NCBI RefSeq assembly: GCF_900095385.1
Contig: NZ_FMID01000017.1
Coordinates: 1 to 64,000 of the forward strand
Source of the DNA: Methanoculleus chikugoensis
GTDB lineage: Archaea; Halobacteriota; Methanomicrobia; Methanomicrobiales; Methanoculleaceae
Direction: 5' to 3'
DNA: 64,000 bases
Shown here in pieces: positions 31,080-42,001 of this stretch (the stretch's first letter is position 1; each line of letters opens with the position of its first letter). A program made the position numbers and the translations under genes. Under the pieces are notes generated by a model. That model searched no databases, had not been told where the DNA came from, and worked only from the letters and a program-made list of their open reading frames with translations.

Positions 31080-31904
31080 CTAGGTCCTCCCCGGCCCCAT
31101 AACGTCCATCAGGCTCTTTACGGGACCGGCGAGCCGGTGCAGGCCGCGGAGGGCGTCGTCCCGCTCGTCATAGACGACGTGCACGACTTTGTGCTCCCCG
31201 CCGACCTCGACGGTCCCGGCCTGCTCAATGACGAGCGACGTCGAGCCGCACCGGACCGTCCCGAGGATCACGTCGCCGCCGACCGTGAACGCGGCGGAAC
31301 TCCCGGGCTCCCCTGCGACTGTCCCCTCGAAGAACCACATGCGGGGCGGGGCGACTTCAAACGTGCCCGACTCGTTCTTGACGAAGGCCCGGGCGTCGTC
31401 GGCGACGGGACCCGGCATCGGTTCGAGGTCGAGCACGAACTCCCGGCCGGGGAGCCGGAGCGTCACCGGGCTCCCTGAACCCGCGTCGGCGACGAACGCC
31501 GCCGGGGCGGCGGTCACGAGGTCGTAGTTCCGGAGGGGCGGAAGGTTGGTGAGGTTCACTTCACCGGTCGGTTGAACCGGGCTGAAGTAAGCGGGATCAG
31601 CCACGAGGACCTGCGTCGTGGGGCCGGACGGCAACCCCGGCGCCGCCACGCACCCGGCGTCGGGAAACGTCACGTTCTCCCCGAGCAGGATCATGCCGGG
31701 GTGCTGCCGTGCGATCTCCTCGGTGATCGGAACCCTCTGTGGGGTTTCGATGACCGGGGTGTACATCGACATATCTCTCGGCTCAACCCAGTGGTCGAAC
31801 GTATCGAGCCAGTTCGTGTATCCCCCGGTGGAGGGCGCCGGAGCGGCAGCGGAACCCGCCGGGAGGAGGAGCGCCAATATCAGGAGTATTTTGATTACCC
31901 GCAT
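31080..31904 (-). CDS. Secreted protein with M12B-propeptide-like domain, no protease
   Basis: 274 residues with signal peptide (1-20). Residues 145-250 resemble the propeptide of reprolysin-type peptidases: FFEGTVAGEPGSSAAF, GGDVILGTVRCG, then VVHVVYDERDD. No HEXXH is present and the chain stops 25 residues later. A second protein at 53.2 kb has the same segment (FTGTLSG, SGDVLRGYF, VLHYLFSSAD). It may be an inhibitor-like or truncated protein. Behind promoter element copy 3. Confidence 0.6.
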   Translation of the reverse strand: MRVIKILLILALLLPAGSAAAPAPSTGGYTNWLDTFDHWVEPRDMSMYTPVIETPQRVPITEEIARQHPGMILLGENVTFPDAGCVAAPGLPSGPTTQVLVADPAYFSPVQPTGEVNLTNLPPLRNYDLVTAAPAAFVADAGSGSPVTLRLPGREFVLDLEPMPGPVADDARAFVKNESGTFEVAPPRMWFFEGTVAGEPGSSAAFTVGGDVILGTVRCGSTSLVIEQAGTVEVGGEHKVVHVVYDERDDALRGLHRLAGPVKSLMDVMGPGRT

Positions 31905-34381: not shown

Positions 34382-35329
34382 TTACTGTTGAATGTAGGGC
34401 ACCGACATGACAAGCTGCCCGATATTCGGGTTGCTGTTGTAAATGTCGATATCATGGTTCCAGATATTGCTGGTGTAGATCACGGAGGTCATGGGCCTGT
34501 ACTGATACCCATGAATTCCGTAGAGCCAGGCATACGTGTAACCATCATTCCAACAATAATTGAAGTAGATCTGGGAGCCCGTGACATCAAACAGGGCACG
34601 GTCTTCAAGGGTCCCGTAGTATAAAAGCCTGAAAGCGTCATACTCGATGTCCGTCACCGGGCTCGGGTGATCCTCGTCGTAATAGCGCAGCTGATACGTG
34701 GTCGGGCTGCCAGGCCAGACACCCACCTCATAGAGGTTATTGCCTCCATTTACCGAGTAAGGTAGGTTTGCACCGTCAAGTCCGGTTCCGCCGTACACAT
34801 CCGGCGAGCACTGGGCCAGGATGAAGGTATCCCACCGGTCTGTTCCTGCTAGCATCTTATCCATATCTTCCTGACAATCCGCAACACCAAGGATCTGCGG
34901 CTGGACGATCACAGCGTCCTCCTCCCGAAGATCACGCTGTTCCATCAGTATTTCGTCGCACACTCGTCTGAAATGCTCACCGACAATCACTTCCTTCAGA
35001 ACGGTTCGGTCCTTCTCGTCAGGTTGAACATCTGTGGCCTTCTCCAGAATGGAGATAATGTCCTCAAGGTTTTGGTCATATTTCTCCATGATTTCCGATA
35101 ACAATTCAGAACATCTCACTGAACTCGCACGATCGGATACCACCAAATTCTCTGCGGCAATCACACGGATGTCTTCGTCGACAGGTTCGAATAATCCCTG
35201 GACTTTGGCTTGATCTTCGATACAGATCGGATCGTTTTCCGTCCAGGCACTCACTGCAGGCACCACCACGCTCACCAGCATTACTGCCAAGAGTATAGAG
35301 AGAGCTCGCATTCCGATTCTTTTTCCCAT
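34382..35329 (-). CDS. Secreted hypothetical protein behind the duplicated leader
   Basis: 315 residues with signal peptide (1-28, ending VSAW). The N-terminal half is acidic and helical with regularly spaced cysteines; the C-terminal half is rich in Y, N and W (WNDGYTYAWLYG). I recognise no family. It shares its 230-bp upstream region with the caspase-like gene at 37.9 kb, so the two are probably coregulated. Confidence 0.72.
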   Translation of the reverse strand: MGKRIGMRALSILLAVMLVSVVVPAVSAWTENDPICIEDQAKVQGLFEPVDEDIRVIAAENLVVSDRASSVRCSELLSEIMEKYDQNLEDIISILEKATDVQPDEKDRTVLKEVIVGEHFRRVCDEILMEQRDLREEDAVIVQPQILGVADCQEDMDKMLAGTDRWDTFILAQCSPDVYGGTGLDGANLPYSVNGGNNLYEVGVWPGSPTTYQLRYYDEDHPSPVTDIEYDAFRLLYYGTLEDRALFDVTGSQIYFNYCWNDGYTYAWLYGIHGYQYRPMTSVIYTSNIWNHDIDIYNSNPNIGQLVMSVPYIQQ

Positions 35330-35361
35330 GTTTTCTACCCCTCTGCTCGTTTTGGTTTCCA

Positions 35362-35592
35362 GAGGCAGGAGAGGCACATGTTTAAGTACGCAGAACGCTT
35401 ACGTTCGCATTGCCTCCGGGCTTGCGGGGCGCGTCATCCGGGCGTCAGACCTGAGGATGGGCGACCCCCGCACACAAACGGGTACCGCACGCGGCACCCG
35501 ATGCGATTCTGGGTCTTCAGAACATATAAAATCAGCAGGCACCGTTCGGCTGGAACCGAACACATCATAAACCTTCTTATGGCAGGACAATA
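35362..35592 (-). promoter_or_regulatory. Duplicated 230-bp upstream region, copy A
   Basis: Nearly identical to 38714-38942. In transcription order it holds the palindrome GTTCGG-N6-CCGAAC (35544-35561), a TATA box ATTTTATATG (RC of 35523-35532), about 120 bp of conserved GC-rich sequence, and a second TATA-like CTTAAACA near 35379. Transcripts from the first box would carry a leader of roughly 170 nt. Confidence 0.75.
35544..35561. promoter_or_regulatory. GTTCGG-N6-CCGAAC operator, site 1
   Basis: A perfect 6-bp inverted repeat with a 6-bp spacer, 12 bp upstream of a TATA box read on the minus strand. The same site and spacing occur at 38895 and 39043. Confidence 0.72.
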
Positions 35593-35718
35593 ATCCCTGC
35601 CCCTGGATGCAGGATCCACCCTGGATTCCCGGTAACACCTAACGAGCTCGATCAATCCGCATCATTATCATCCACTAAACCCCAATCACTCTTTAAAATC
35701 GACGCAATTAATTTACTC

Positions 35719-36959: not shown

Positions 36960-37904
36960 TCACCGTTTCCCCTCATCAGCAAAGACATATTCGACATACG
37001 GCTCCTCTACACCGTCCCGGAGTGCAGTTCCGGAAAACGCATAAACCGGCCGGACCAGATCCTGCACGAAACCCCTTGGCTCCATCCAGTAACCGATCGC
37101 GACGTGCTCGATCGTGATCCGGTCGTACTCTTGCCCCGTGTGAGGGCGGACAGTCCATGCTGCACGAAGATCCTCATACGCCTCCTCGGGAGACCGGAGG
37201 CTGACATTCCCGTCCGGCGCCACCTCCCGCCAGGTCTTCACGAGCCCGACGACCTCACCGCCGTCACCCAGGATCGCCGCGAATTCGTCGCCATAGACCG
37301 GCAACCCGTCGAGCGACCGGCCGAACCTGACTGCCTTGGTGATGTCGTACGACACCTTCGGCTCGGTGGCACCTGCTTCCCAGACCTCCTGCTTCTGGTT
37401 CACCTCGGTCTTCACGACCCGGGCGTCCGGCGATTGCATACCGGTCTTCTCAAGGAATGCGAGAGCAATCTTCTCCGCGTCCGCGTCCGAGGGAAGATCA
37501 GGCTGCTCGGTCACTTCGGTCGGGAACTCTCTGTCAAGGATGTGGTAAGCCACCCCGCCGGAATGCGCATACACCGACATATGCTCCTCCGGCTCCTTCG
37601 AGACGTCGACAAGGAAGAACTCCCCGGTCACCTCGCTGACCGCTTTCGGTTCTCCCGAGAGCCCGAATCGCTCCGCAATCTCCCGGACCCGATCCTCCGT
37701 GACGGTAACCGGGACCACCCGGTAGAGCGTATACGAGCCCTGCACTTCCGGGAACTCTGCGGCGAGAGAGTATGTACCTTCACCTGCGCCCGCCACGGCG
37801 GGGAGAGGAGTCACGGGAACCTGACCCGGACCAAAAACCCACATGCACCCGACTGCGACCGCCAGAGCAAGACAGACGAGTGCACCAACCATCTTTAATG
37901 CCAT
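36960..37904 (-). CDS. Secreted PepSY-like protein paired with a caspase-like protease
   Basis: 314 residues with an N-terminal hydrophobic segment (7-24). Repeated alpha/beta units resemble PepSY or FTP propeptide domains: VTEDRVREIAERFGL, SDADAEKIALAFLEK, SPEEAYEDLRAAW, each followed by strands such as FFLVDVS and VYGDEF. It lies 14 bp after the caspase-like gene in one operon. A role as extracellular chaperone or inhibitor is inference from the pairing, seen again at 39.1-40.6 kb. Confidence 0.65.
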   Translation of the reverse strand: MALKMVGALVCLALAVAVGCMWVFGPGQVPVTPLPAVAGAGEGTYSLAAEFPEVQGSYTLYRVVPVTVTEDRVREIAERFGLSGEPKAVSEVTGEFFLVDVSKEPEEHMSVYAHSGGVAYHILDREFPTEVTEQPDLPSDADAEKIALAFLEKTGMQSPDARVVKTEVNQKQEVWEAGATEPKVSYDITKAVRFGRSLDGLPVYGDEFAAILGDGGEVVGLVKTWREVAPDGNVSLRSPEEAYEDLRAAWTVRPHTGQEYDRITIEHVAIGYWMEPRGFVQDLVRPVYAFSGTALRDGVEEPYVEYVFADEGKR

Positions 37905-37918
37905 ACTAAGACCTCAGT

Positions 37919-38686
37919 TTAGTTGCACTGGAATAACCACCGGTAGATCTCACTGTCAACAGGTGGATCGGTGATCACAGATCCCTCTCCCCAGATGCGA
38001 TCGTCACCACAAGCGGCGTTCTCACCAATGATACCGATCCAAACGTTGCTCTGGTGGGTCTCATCCAACGCATGATACCACGCGTGACGCACCTTATAAT
38101 TGTTAAAGAGTTTGTTTGCGACGGCCGCTCCATCCTCGGCATAGTCGTAGCCGACCGTGTCGAACCCGCAAACCAGATGAGCGCCATTCAAAGCCCAATG
38201 TGGCCACGCTTTGAATTCTCCGGGGACCTGAGCGGTATGGCACGAATGTAGCAAGATCCATTCCAGATCCTGATCGCCCCAATTACAGTCATGAAAGTAT
38301 ACCCAGGCGAGAACAAGCGGGAGACCATCCAGAAGGATGCAACTGTCGTCACCGTGTCCTGCCCAGAAGACGAGGTCTACGCTATCGACATGGGCTGCAT
38401 CTGAATCCCAGTCCCACCGTTGGATGTCTCTATCCCAGTCGCCTATATAGAAGTTACACCCCCACCCGGCATTATCGAACACTTCATAGAAGCCTTCGGC
38501 AATGGCGGGTGAGTTTGGCAGGTTGTTCCCGGTGTTATAGTTCTGTTTGTACTCCACCCCGAATTCCGGGAAGATCGCGTCGGAATCGTCGCCCGTCCCG
38601 GCACTGACCGGGGCCATGCATGCCATCCCCATGAAAGCCGTTACCAGGAGCACAGAGAGCGCCCGCGCTCCGATGTTTCTGTTCAT
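37919..38686 (-). CDS. Secreted caspase-fold (clan CD, DUF6345-like) cysteine protease 1
   Basis: 255 residues with signal peptide (1-29). VDLVFWAGHGDDS places H111 before a glycine, and LEWILLHSCHTAQ places C149 after a hydrophobic strand, the His-Gly and Cys dyad of caspases, gingipains and clostripain. DUF6345 proteins show the same pattern; activity is not proven. ATG 38686 has GGAGGA upstream. Next in the operon is a PepSY-like gene. Confidence 0.72.
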   Translation of the reverse strand: MNRNIGARALSVLLVTAFMGMACMAPVSAGTGDDSDAIFPEFGVEYKQNYNTGNNLPNSPAIAEGFYEVFDNAGWGCNFYIGDWDRDIQRWDWDSDAAHVDSVDLVFWAGHGDDSCILLDGLPLVLAWVYFHDCNWGDQDLEWILLHSCHTAQVPGEFKAWPHWALNGAHLVCGFDTVGYDYAEDGAAVANKLFNNYKVRHAWYHALDETHQSNVWIGIIGENAACGDDRIWGEGSVITDPPVDSEIYRWLFQCN

Positions 38687-38713
38687 TGTCGTTTTCCTCC
38701 AACCTTTTCCCCG

Positions 38714-38942
38714 GAGGCAGAAGAAGCACACGTTTAAGTATGCAGAACGCTTACGTTCGCATTGCCTCCGGGCTTGCGGGGCGCGTCATCCGGGGCGTCA
38801 ACCGGGGATGGGCGACCCCCGCACACAAACGGGTACCGCACGCGGCACCCGATGCGGTTCTGGGTCGTTAGAACATATAAAATCAGCAGCCATCGTTCGG
38901 TTTTTTCCGAATTCATCATAAATCTTCTTATGGCAGGACAAT
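38714..38942 (-). promoter_or_regulatory. Duplicated 230-bp upstream region, copy B
   Basis: Matches copy A at 35362-35592 with few changes. It holds the palindrome at 38895, a TATA box ATTTTATATG (RC of 38874-38883) and a second TATA-like CTTAAACG near 38733. It serves the caspase-like/PepSY operon. Confidence 0.75.
38895..38912. promoter_or_regulatory. GTTCGG-N6-CCGAAC operator, site 2
   Basis: GTTCGG-TTTTTT-CCGAAT, one mismatch from the palindrome, 12 bp upstream of the minus-strand TATA box. Confidence 0.68.
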
Positions 38943-39042
38943 GGTCCCGACCCTTGAAGACAAGACCCGACAAAACTTCAGAGTCCCGAACAGCCGCACC
39001 TTTACCCATCCACCACGCAGCAGATCGCAAGGTTTAAGATTT

Positions 39043-39060
39043 GTTCGGCCAGAACCGAAC
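39043..39060. promoter_or_regulatory. GTTCGG-N6-CCGAAC operator, site 3
   Basis: GTTCGG-CCAGAA-CCGAAC lies 12-13 bp upstream of the plus-strand TATA box CTTTATAAG at 39073. It serves the second caspase-like gene. The rest of the gap 38943-39147 shows no gene. Confidence 0.72.
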
Positions 39061-39147
39061 GACGACGGCGGGCTTTATAAGATTCTCCCTCGAATTCGGG
39101 TTTAGTTCCGGGTGCAGGAACGCCCGGGCGCACCTTGAGGGATACTT

Positions 39148-39840
39148 ATGAAACGATGGATCTACATGCTGGCAGCACTCTTCCTGCTCGCGGCTCTGCC
39201 TGCCGCCGCCAGCGCCGCACCACTCACGCACAACTATGACTGTTCGGACACGACGCCGACGGCCTACGACGCACGGGTGGATCAGGCAGCGATGTACTAC
39301 TCCAGCTCGTCATCCACGAATGCACACGCATCGACGGCTTACAGTCAGTTCAGGTCGGATGCTGTATTCTTCTTCAACGGTCACGGCCTCTACTACGACG
39401 ACTCGCATAAAGGCGGTGGGATAAAGTTCTCCTCGGAATCCTGGATACTTGCCGACACCGACGGTCATTACCCGGGAACCGACCGGTACTACATAACTGA
39501 TTACGGAACCGACATCAGGGATGTCCTGCTCGCGGTCTACCTCGCCTGCCATTCGTCCCATTACAACCCTTACAACGGAGATCTTCTCCAGCAGACCATG
39601 AACAAAGGCGCAGACATCTGCCTGGGGTTCGACGGCGAGGTCGAGGTCGAAAACGGAAAGTGCTGGTCCGGGAGTTTCTGGGACCGGTTGCGAAACGGGG
39701 AGACCGTTGCAAGCGCCGCAAGCAATGCAAAGGACGACTGCTACTTGCACTGGCCGTTCGGTTACCACGGAGTGGACACCTATGAGATCTCCGGCAGTTA
39801 CAACAGTTGTCTCACTCCCGCTCGCTACGGAGTCTATTAA
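39148..39840 (+). CDS. Secreted caspase-fold-like cysteine protease 2
   Basis: 230 residues with signal peptide (1-24). DAVFFFNGHGLYY places H79 before glycine and LLAVYLACHSSHY places C134, again the clan CD dyad. Outside these blocks it is only distantly related to protease 1. GAGGGA precedes the ATG. It is followed 15 bp later by a PepSY-like gene, repeating the arrangement at 37-38.7 kb. Confidence 0.72.
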   Translation: MKRWIYMLAALFLLAALPAAASAAPLTHNYDCSDTTPTAYDARVDQAAMYYSSSSSTNAHASTAYSQFRSDAVFFFNGHGLYYDDSHKGGGIKFSSESWILADTDGHYPGTDRYYITDYGTDIRDVLLAVYLACHSSHYNPYNGDLLQQTMNKGADICLGFDGEVEVENGKCWSGSFWDRLRNGETVASAASNAKDDCYLHWPFGYHGVDTYEISGSYNSCLTPARYGVY

Positions 39841-39855
39841 TGAGGTGATTCAATC

Positions 39856-40632
39856 ATGAAACGGATACACATTGTTGCAATGCTATGCCTCGTCGTCGCG
39901 GTCTCGGTCGTGTCGGCGGCCGGCGCCAGCGCTCCGATCGGGGTGGATACTGCGAAAGAAAGAGCACAGGACTTTCTCAACGCACCCGACGTAACCGTCC
40001 AGTACCAGAAGACCGAACGCCTGAATCTGGGAGAGTACTATGTCTTTGGTACCGGAGACGGACAGATTTACGTCAACGCCCGGACCGGGGTGATCGAACG
40101 TGCCACGTTCGACTCCGCACGGAAGGATTGCCGCGATGTCCGGCTGGATCGGGCCGCAGCCGAAGCAACGGCAAGGGCCTACGCCGAAGAGAAGTACAGC
40201 GGCTTTGCGAAGAAGAGTATGCAGCTTACCAGATCGAACCTGGTCTCTCACGGCGATGCGGGCAGCGAGTATTCGTACATCTGGAGAGAAGAGAGCAGTG
40301 GCGTCCTCACGCCGAACACGGTCGTCGTGAACCTTAACCCGAGCACTGGCGAGATCGTCTCGTACATCGGGATCCAGCGGGAGATCGAATGCCCGCTTGA
40401 GCCGAAACTTTCCCGGGACGAGGCGCTGAAGATCGCAGCCGGGCAGTTCCCGGGAATCCGGGTGACCAGTGCAACGGCCGACCTCTCCGTTGAGTACACC
40501 CGACCGGACGCACAAACGCTGACCTGGGTGATTACGATGAGAGGCGAGCCAGAGGACCACGTTCTCCAGGGAGGGCTTGTCGTCATCGACGCACAGACCG
40601 GAGAAGTGCTGATGGTGAGTCCATACCTCTAA
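39856..40632 (+). CDS. Secreted PepSY-domain protein paired with caspase-like protease 2
   Basis: 258 residues with signal peptide (1-27). Two or three PepSY-like units are visible: VDTAKERAQDFLN, LDRAAAEATARAYAEEKY, and SRDEALKIAAGQFPGI followed by LTWVITM and GGLVVIDAQTGEVL, the last being the classical PepSY ending. GAGGTGA precedes the ATG. PepSY domains inhibit or chaperone secreted peptidases; the partner here would be protease 2. Confidence 0.78.
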   Translation: MKRIHIVAMLCLVVAVSVVSAAGASAPIGVDTAKERAQDFLNAPDVTVQYQKTERLNLGEYYVFGTGDGQIYVNARTGVIERATFDSARKDCRDVRLDRAAAEATARAYAEEKYSGFAKKSMQLTRSNLVSHGDAGSEYSYIWREESSGVLTPNTVVVNLNPSTGEIVSYIGIQREIECPLEPKLSRDEALKIAAGQFPGIRVTSATADLSVEYTRPDAQTLTWVITMRGEPEDHVLQGGLVVIDAQTGEVLMVSPYL

Positions 40633-40658: not shown

Positions 40659-41456
40659 ATGCACTCGAAGACGTGGGTATGGCTCGGTATCGGTGTCGTT
40701 CTCATCCTTGCTGCGGCAAACCTCGCCATACTTGCGGCCTTTCCCCCGGGGCACCAGCACGTGCAGGAACCGCTCAAACGGGTGGAATGGATACTGCCGT
40801 TCGGGCCGGGGTTCGAATACCGCGGCCCCTACGAGAGCCCGCTGATCGTCTACGACGGGACGAACGAGACCTGGCACCTGCAAAACGCCACAGCCTGGAA
40901 CAGGACCATCTCCCTCGATGACCGCTACAGCCTTGACCCGGCGCATCCGGAGGACATCCGCTACACCCCCGATATCGCAATCGAGGGCGACAAAATCAGC
41001 CTCGACTTCTTCGTCCGGAACCTCGCTGGTGAAGACTGCGCCCGGGCCGATCTCACCGTGACGACGGGGATTGAGCGCCTGAACGCCACCACGGGATCGC
41101 CGGAGGGGGATGTCCTCCGCAACGCCATGACTATGCTGCCTGTCAACGATCTCGCTGCCGGGGAGTGGCGCGAAGTGCGGGTGACGGCGGACCTCCCGCG
41201 GCCCGGCCCGGAGGAACTCCTCTACCTGACGATCGATCTTGCCGCCCCGTATACCCTCACGACCCCGAACGGCACGTCGGTCACTTTCGATCCCCGGGAG
41301 ATGAGCAGCGTCGTCTCCGGCCCCTCTCACACCGGAGGGGGCACGAACGACCCCAGATATAATCGGGCTCACCTGCCCCGGGCGTCGGCGACGTTCGTCG
41401 TAGCGGGGAGAGATGTACCGGAACTGATTCCACCGCCGACTATCCGGGCGGAGTGA
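40659..41456 (+). CDS. Membrane-anchored extracytoplasmic protein
   Basis: 265 residues: an N-terminal anchor (WLGIGVVLILAAANLAILAA) and an outer domain with several sequons (NETW, NATA, NRTI). No family recognised. It ends 71 bp before the membrane-bound HTH regulator gene and may belong to the same transcript as the protease/PepSY pair. Confidence 0.68.
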   Translation: MHSKTWVWLGIGVVLILAAANLAILAAFPPGHQHVQEPLKRVEWILPFGPGFEYRGPYESPLIVYDGTNETWHLQNATAWNRTISLDDRYSLDPAHPEDIRYTPDIAIEGDKISLDFFVRNLAGEDCARADLTVTTGIERLNATTGSPEGDVLRNAMTMLPVNDLAAGEWREVRVTADLPRPGPEELLYLTIDLAAPYTLTTPNGTSVTFDPREMSSVVSGPSHTGGGTNDPRYNRAHLPRASATFVVAGRDVPELIPPPTIRAE

Positions 41457-41527: not shown

Positions 41528-42001
41528 ATGGAAGACGTCACGCTCGACCGGGACGATATCGTCGCTCTCTCCTCCGACGCCCGGGTCGCAATCCTCAAAT
41601 CGCTCGATACCCGGCCCATGACGATGAGCGAGCTCGCCGACGGGCTCGGTCTTGCCAGGTCGACCGTTCATGAGCACCTCAGTGTTCTCGCCGACGCGGA
41701 TCTCGTGACTCACGAGAATGCCCGGAAATGGCGGGACTACGCCCTGACGAAGAGGGGGCGACGGATCCTTCATCCCGGGAGGGACCACCGGATCGTCTTC
41801 CTCCTCGGCACGTCCCTCGCTGTCATGACGGCCGGGGTGCTCTGCGTGACATCGTATCTCCACGGTTTCGCCGTCCAGGGGGGAAGCGTCGTCAGGGACC
41901 CCCTCCTCCTCTACGCGGGCGAGGCGCTCCTCGGTGTGACGATCACGCTCTGGTACATAGCTCTGCGATGCCGGCGAGGAATCTCCCCCATACCGGAGTA
42001 G
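41528..42001 (+). CDS. Membrane-anchored ArsR-like winged-helix regulator
   Basis: 157 residues. The N-terminal winged helix (about 10-80) has ALSSDARVAILKSLDTRPMT, then MSELADGLGLARSTVHEHLS. Two C-terminal helices (IVFLLGTSLAVMTAGVLC and LLLYAGEALLGVTITLWYIA) tie it to the membrane. Such regulators are common in archaea. Its place next to the protease island makes it a candidate controller of that region. Confidence 0.82.
   Translation: MEDVTLDRDDIVALSSDARVAILKSLDTRPMTMSELADGLGLARSTVHEHLSVLADADLVTHENARKWRDYALTKRGRRILHPGRDHRIVFLLGTSLAVMTAGVLCVTSYLHGFAVQGGSVVRDPLLLYAGEALLGVTITLWYIALRCRRGISPIPE

Follow-up and report, generated by a model that had tools for sequence, protein, structure and literature searches.

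Candidate exported caspase-fold peptidases, each paired with a PepSY-like protein, in two divergent operons of Methanoculleus chikugoensis

What would two neighbouring, oppositely directed operons of the archaeon Methanoculleus chikugoensis do outside the cell, and why does each couple a protease-like gene to a gene for a PepSY-like protein? The operons lie in a stretch of 64,000 nucleotides (positions 1 to 64,000 of contig NZ_FMID01000017.1, assembly GCF_900095385.1; hereafter the window) from a genome of 70 contigs and 2.65 Mb. A reading of the DNA alone, called here the sequence-only reading, had proposed two modules, each with a secreted clan CD protease-like protein and a PepSY-like partner encoded immediately behind it, and the four genes were confirmed at their coordinates (Table 1). 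The minus-strand operon encodes protein A (255 amino acids) and, after a gap of 14 base pairs (bp), the partner of A (314 amino acids). The plus-strand operon encodes protein B (230 amino acids) and, after 15 bp, its PepSY partner (258 amino acids); next come genes for an exported protein with a membrane anchor and for a winged-helix protein of ArsR type. The two operons diverge, as had been described, from a common intergenic region, which measures 461 bp. The explanation that we consider probable is that A and B are exported peptidases of caspase fold, each with an inhibitor or folding partner dedicated to it, expressed within an exoprotease regulon.

Protein A exceeds the gathering cut-off of PF19872 (DUF6345) with 120.1 bits against 26.9 (E-value 1.2e-34), and all 33 aligned relatives match this family too. 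When its AlphaFold model (predicted local distance difference test, pLDDT, 86; predicted template modelling score, pTM, 0.83) was searched with Foldseek, the top match was the SAVED-CHAT filament protease 8tl0 (E-value 3e-7), followed by caspases-3, -6, -7 and -1 (E-values of 1.5e-4 and weaker) and the secreted C11 protease 6n9j; all 50 matches listed are CHAT proteases, caspases or the C11 protease. Protein B belongs to no Pfam family and has no match over the PF19872 cut-off, and four of its 25 relatives match that family weakly (best E-value 0.0028). Against Protein Data Bank (PDB) sequences, the profile of B finds 8tl0 (E-value 3.4e-6) with the GHG and AC motifs in register, and hhalign comparison of the A and B family profiles (97.6%, E-value 2.6e-12) aligns both catalytic positions. 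The caspase-like fold suspected from the DNA was thus recovered for A in the predicted structure and for B, at the level of profile homology, through its relation to CHAT and to A. Neither protein has a Pfam C25 or C11 match, single-sequence searches of the PDB with A or B returned no relative, and the profile of A had no match among PDB sequences.

The proposed catalytic dyads, H111/C149 in A and H79/C134 in B, were named correctly. H111 and C149 are invariant in 33 of 33 relatives of A; H79 is kept in all 24 rows of the B alignment that cover the position, and C134 in 23 of 25, the remaining two being tandem paralogues (loci L071 and L074) with F at this position. Non-catalytic surface proteins merely resembling clan CD peptidases might lose the cysteine in this way, and Pfam lists DUF6345 as of function unknown; such a reading is nonetheless extremely unlikely, as His and Cys are among the five positions that are invariant across 33 A sequences with a mean column identity of 29%. 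A and B are best read as exported caspase-fold peptidases, which would cleave proteins. Tandem second copies of B in which the Cys is replaced by F lie beside a B-partner pair in L071, L074 and L200 (5624-6358) and are probable pseudoenzymes.

In 345 genomes of the phylum searched with the protease profiles of A and B, relatives of A were found in 44 and relatives of B in 19. The distribution of A is patchy. Full-length B proteins in named Methanoculleus records are 84-96% identical to B of the window in a single-sequence scan, and conservation of B across most of the genus is 84-97%. Several weak DUF6345-like matches (seven in that genome) spread over 58 kb in genome G042 (C1 1403794-1461304) may represent a family expansion.

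Both partners had been described as secreted PepSY-like proteins. The likeness to PepSY stood, by family match for the partner of B and by model for the partner of A; free secretion of the latter appears less likely. As judged by eye from signal sequences, A, B and the partner of B appear to carry cleavable signal sequences, while the partner of A looks to have an uncleaved N-terminal anchor and to be membrane-anchored more than freely secreted. The partner of B exceeds the gathering cut-off of PF03413 (PepSY) with 50.9 bits against 24 (E-value 2e-13) and is the sole PF03413 match of the whole genome at an E-value of 0.001 or below. It also matches YcdB weakly and falls below the cut-off of the Spi inhibitor family I69 (PF13734, Inhibitor_I69; 22.2 bits against 25). 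The AlphaFold model of the partner of A has a pLDDT of 88, mostly above 94 past residue 50, and Foldseek places it near an uncharacterised Eubacterium protein and YycI (2o3o), with weaker matches to the propeptides of vibriolysin MCP-02 (3nqz) and fungalysin (4k90_B); its PepSY likeness rests on this predicted fold. Relatives of this partner match FTP, YcdB and YycI weakly, with FTP matches up to an E-value of 0.1 in 13 of 32 (best 4e-5), and the profiles of both partners have weak sequence matches to M4/M36 propeptides. The two partner families are not claimed to be sisters, the profile link between them being weak (64%, E-value 6.5e-5).

Conservation of the pairing was assessed at 74 dereplicated protease loci with flanking sequence sufficient for judging, a sample that takes in related species and so is not one of independent loci. 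A type-matched partner is present at 69 of them, at 66 as an adjacent gene (same strand, at most 450 bp downstream) and at three fused to the protease. The pairs comprise 38 A-A, 31 B-B and no mixed types. At the exceptions, the partner lies about 800 bp downstream (L046), a partner-like match is on the opposite strand (L097), no partner is found within 1464 bp (L068), or, for the two C134F copies of B, no type-matched partner adjoins. Chains that run from protease to partner are found in L203 (845 and 1862 amino acids; A type), in L205 (972 amino acids; B type) and in L206 (1204 amino acids; B type). Because they occur fused in single chains, protease and partner are suggested to act together. 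None of the three outcomes named beforehand as refuting the sequence-only reading was observed: absence of a caspase fold (judged for B on profile homology), unconserved catalytic residues, or a pairing confined to this genome.

How they might do so can be outlined. In each module, an exported cysteine endopeptidase of caspase (clan CD) fold, using a His-Cys dyad, would be transcribed together with a PepSY/propeptide-like protein that works in trans. Most likely, this partner would bind the enzyme during or after export and keep it inactive until needed, and it may also aid its folding as a propeptide does. The partner of module A seems to be held at the outside of the producing cell's membrane, where it would shield that cell; module B would release both enzyme and partner. 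In another reading, the partner is a dedicated substrate of the protease, as the products of adjacent genes are for some CHAT proteases, and cutting it would set free a signal or effector. TPR-CHAT and other CHAT proteases do act with genetically linked proteins, and the membrane-anchored partners of A resemble the sensor regulator YycI in fold; however, the partner of A folds compactly at high confidence with no exposed linker noted, propeptide-like folds are typical of inhibitors, and both domains coexist in fused chains, which makes a substrate role very improbable.

Whether the partner would act chiefly as an inhibitor or as a chaperone is addressed by loci in which partners outnumber proteases. 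Loci L193, L194 and L195 have one A protease followed by five, four and five partner genes, respectively, which are 63-84% alike. Orphan A-type partners, with no A protease beside them, are represented by two distinct sequences (L109, the same as L198, and L111, the same as L199) that are 82-85% identical to the partner of A of the window; their ratio of nonsynonymous to synonymous substitution (dN/dS) of about 0.22-0.26 indicates purifying selection. These arrays and orphans resemble immunity genes, and because of them an inhibitor fits better than a chaperone. A partner that is mainly a folding chaperone (a propeptide in trans) or a secretion partner, with inhibition secondary or absent, would agree with the PepSY/FTP propeptides of M4 and M36 peptidases, which are intramolecular chaperones, with the match of the fold of A's partner to those propeptides, and with fusions that put the partner directly C-terminal to the enzyme. 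Yet orphans maintained by selection with no close protease, and four to five diverged partners per enzyme, are hard to explain by folding alone, so that we regard this alternative as a minor possibility.

At the orphan site, L109, L111 and L198 have a 262-amino acid membrane protein, preceded in L111 by a C39-like fragment. The idea that orphan partners stand beside a degraded A gene was dropped, as no A remnant was found.

The same loci bear on a polymorphic toxin-immunity system acting between archaea, in which the caspase-fold domain would be a weapon and the partners immunity genes stockpiled against foreign variants. The tandem partners and orphans just described would fit, as would the patchy distribution of A, the placing of the protease domain at the C-terminal end of long exported proteins or close to it, and, in L196, a C-terminal remnant of a protease left between two partners. 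Such a system is nevertheless unlikely: B is not polymorphic but strongly conserved in most of the genus, and a single chain sometimes holds both enzyme and partner, which is not the way of toxin and immunity proteins; in addition, the operator described below also drives ordinary exopeptidases, and no invariant trafficking domain carrying exchanged tips was found, although no systematic search for one was made. Just as doubtful is a wider version for the Halobacteriota, a broad family of exported caspase-fold proteases that would attack or remodel sister cells, every one of them matched by an immunity protein of PepSY fold, with stockpiled arrays and with one operator coordinating them with other exopeptidases. 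Apparent internal deletions in protease domains of L196 were not accepted as evidence, since what is missing there is runs of N in the record.

The preferred explanation, peptidases with dedicated inhibitors or folding partners, also draws on how the operons appear to be controlled. The sequence-only reading had noticed one operator palindrome before both operons, and TTCGG-N6-CCGAA is indeed found at 38896 and 39044; it had mentioned neither the third copy, at 35545, nor the wider regulon, the partner arrays and the orphan partners. The window has exactly these three copies against 0.18 expected, and none of 100 shuffles reached three. With its outer G/C included, the palindrome has two exact matches in the whole genome, both in the window, and eight places with one mismatch, among them the promoter of A. 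At all 29 sites in the window and in loci L104-L115, a TATA box starts 13-14 bp past the operator in one direction; in the opposite direction, taken as a control, none does. Among relatives the arms are retained, and the six bases between them vary. B starts 88 bp past the operator in Methanoculleus (81 in L113), and most other operator genes start about 195-215 bp past it, behind a common leader. The promoter and leader of the gene under the third operator (35320-35620) duplicate those of A (86-94% identical), and the encoded protein has no Pfam match. Operator genes of relatives include M12-type metallopeptidases with HExxH, a Transglut_core (transglutaminase-like) protein and a C39-like fragment. 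Because the operator drives exported peptidase genes in relatives, A and B appear to be regulated like exported peptidases, which therefore lends independent support to their peptidase nature, and the modules are best read as part of an exoprotease regulon.

Other genes around these operators were also noted. Candidate exported metallopeptidases (HExxH, Reprolysin-like) lie under the operator at L105 4176-5636, L106 4272-5594 and 9960-11294, L108 1154-2464 and L114 4283-5596; this slot is divergent or nearby and differs between species, as if exchanged. Operator-driven exported proteins of 316 and 334 amino acids (L104 4547-5494 and L110 10219-11220) have no Pfam match and by eye are possibly neprosin-like. 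In the window, the exported protein at 31083-31904 resembles at its start (WLDTFD) the transglutaminase-like protein of L106 1799-3103, with no operator seen adjoining.

The operator, set 13-14 bp before the TATA box, would serve to control transcription. The most likely regulator is the ArsR-like protein that ends the B operon, whose hydrophobic tail is read as a probable two-helix membrane tail. The gene for this protein lies close to B in 13 of the 14 named relatives; in the fourteenth the contig ends before it. Two or more exact operators occur in 12 of 17 genomes of the genus with a close homologue of this regulator against 2 of 18 without (p = 5e-4), a comparison that ignores phylogeny and assembly gaps, for which reason the ArsR-like membrane protein is rated a strong candidate for the operator's regulator and no higher. 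Genomes G046 and G108 have operators and regulator near each other with no B. A second copy of the winged-helix regulator (76%) is found in G034 (C1 128626-130218), 1.1 kb from another operator.

Several points weigh against the favoured explanation. Compared with solved clan CD structures, A has moderate TM-scores of about 0.4-0.54. The partner of A has no Pfam match over cut-off (FTP PF07504, 13.9 bits against 21), and PepSY partners can also act as chaperones. Because C134 is F in two tandem paralogues of B, some members of that family would be non-enzymes. The neglect of phylogeny in the operator comparison belongs here as well.

Table 1. Coordinates of the two modules, their control elements and associated features (window positions unless a locus is named)
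Feature	Position	Strand	Basis
Protein A, exported DUF6345 protein, candidate caspase-fold cysteine peptidase, H111/C149	37919..38686	-	PF19872, AlphaFold, Foldseek; ATG at 38686
Partner of A, apparently membrane-anchored PepSY/YycI-like protein, candidate inhibitor or chaperone	36960..37904	-	AlphaFold, Foldseek, adjacency
Protein B, exported, candidate cysteine peptidase of caspase/CHAT-like type (H79/C134), in no Pfam family	39148..39840	+	Profile matches to 8tl0 and A family
Partner of B, exported, PepSY family, weakly like Spi/I69 and YcdB	39856..40632	+	PF03413
B operon gene 3, conserved membrane-anchored exported protein, no assigned function	40659..41456	+	Present 3' of partner of B in 14/14 named relatives
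Candidate regulator, ArsR-type winged helix with hydrophobic tail	41528..42001	+	HTH_20, E-value 5.3e-12
Operator palindrome upstream of A, TTCGG-N6-CCGAA	38895..38912	.	Palindrome count
TATA box of A, begins 13 bp past operator	38876..38882	-	Operator/TATA geometry
Operator palindrome upstream of B	39043..39060	.	Conserved in L104-L115
TATA box of B, begins 14 bp past operator	39074..39079	+	Operator/TATA geometry
Exported protein under third operator, leader as in A, A-like signal sequence	34385..35329	-	Promoter/leader duplicate of A
Third operator palindrome	35544..35561	.	Palindrome count
Tandem partner arrays beside one A-type protease	L193 7362-14048; L194 4515-9703; L195 3401-10234		

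The modules share features with several known systems. SAVED-CHAT and TPR-CHAT proteases are known as intracellular enzymes. Like these and the orthocaspases, A and B have the predicted fold and the His-Cys dyad, 8tl0 being the nearest solved structure for both; unlike SAVED-CHAT and TPR-CHAT, they carry signal sequences and lack SAVED or TPR parts, and neither they nor their partners match a PADLOC defence model. As in M4 and M36 metallopeptidases with FTP-PepSY propeptides, a propeptide-like PepSY domain is proposed to control an exported peptidase, but here the peptidase is a cysteine enzyme of clan CD, and its partner mostly has a gene of its own, which lies downstream instead of forming an N-terminal part. 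In SpeB-Spi, staphopain-staphostatin and the Bacteroides C10 proteases, a cysteine protease is co-transcribed with its inhibitor, and the Bacteroides C10 systems have lipoprotein or periplasmic inhibitors as well as a paralogue lacking the catalytic Cys (PMC3462683). The modules resemble SpeB-Spi and Bacteroides C10 in that an exported cysteine protease is co-transcribed with its own candidate inhibitor, which for B has the sub-threshold Spi (I69) match. Those enzymes have a papain fold (C10, C47) whereas A and B are assigned a caspase fold, with a PepSY/YycI-like and larger partner; because the enzyme fold differs, the modules are not members of these systems.

Exported clan CD peptidases have been reported in archaea as gingipain-like C25 enzymes of sediment Thermoprofundales and Bathyarchaeota (PMC6752024), and no more than 5 of 114 archaeal genomes were found to have metacaspases (PMC3501461). 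A and B differ from archaeal exported C25 and C11 peptidases in having no Pfam match to either family, and the PepSY partner and the operator are new features. For archaeal PepSY proteins, the proteases have been called "remaining to be identified" (PMC6393860). Compared with the double-PepSY cluster cls.004634 of DPANN archaea, a likely target is indicated here by linkage and fusion. No description of DUF6345 or of a caspase-like/PepSY pairing was found in the literature searched, which lay mostly outside subscription journals.

These results suggest a probable function for DUF6345 and for its unnamed sister family, that of B. Among exported cysteine proteases whose genes are coupled to that of a partner, they would add a further kind, one of caspase fold, and they offer a concrete likely target for archaeal PepSY proteins. 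An exported-peptidase regulon of a methanogen with a precise operator is directly testable, and it raises the question of what such archaea digest or fight extracellularly.

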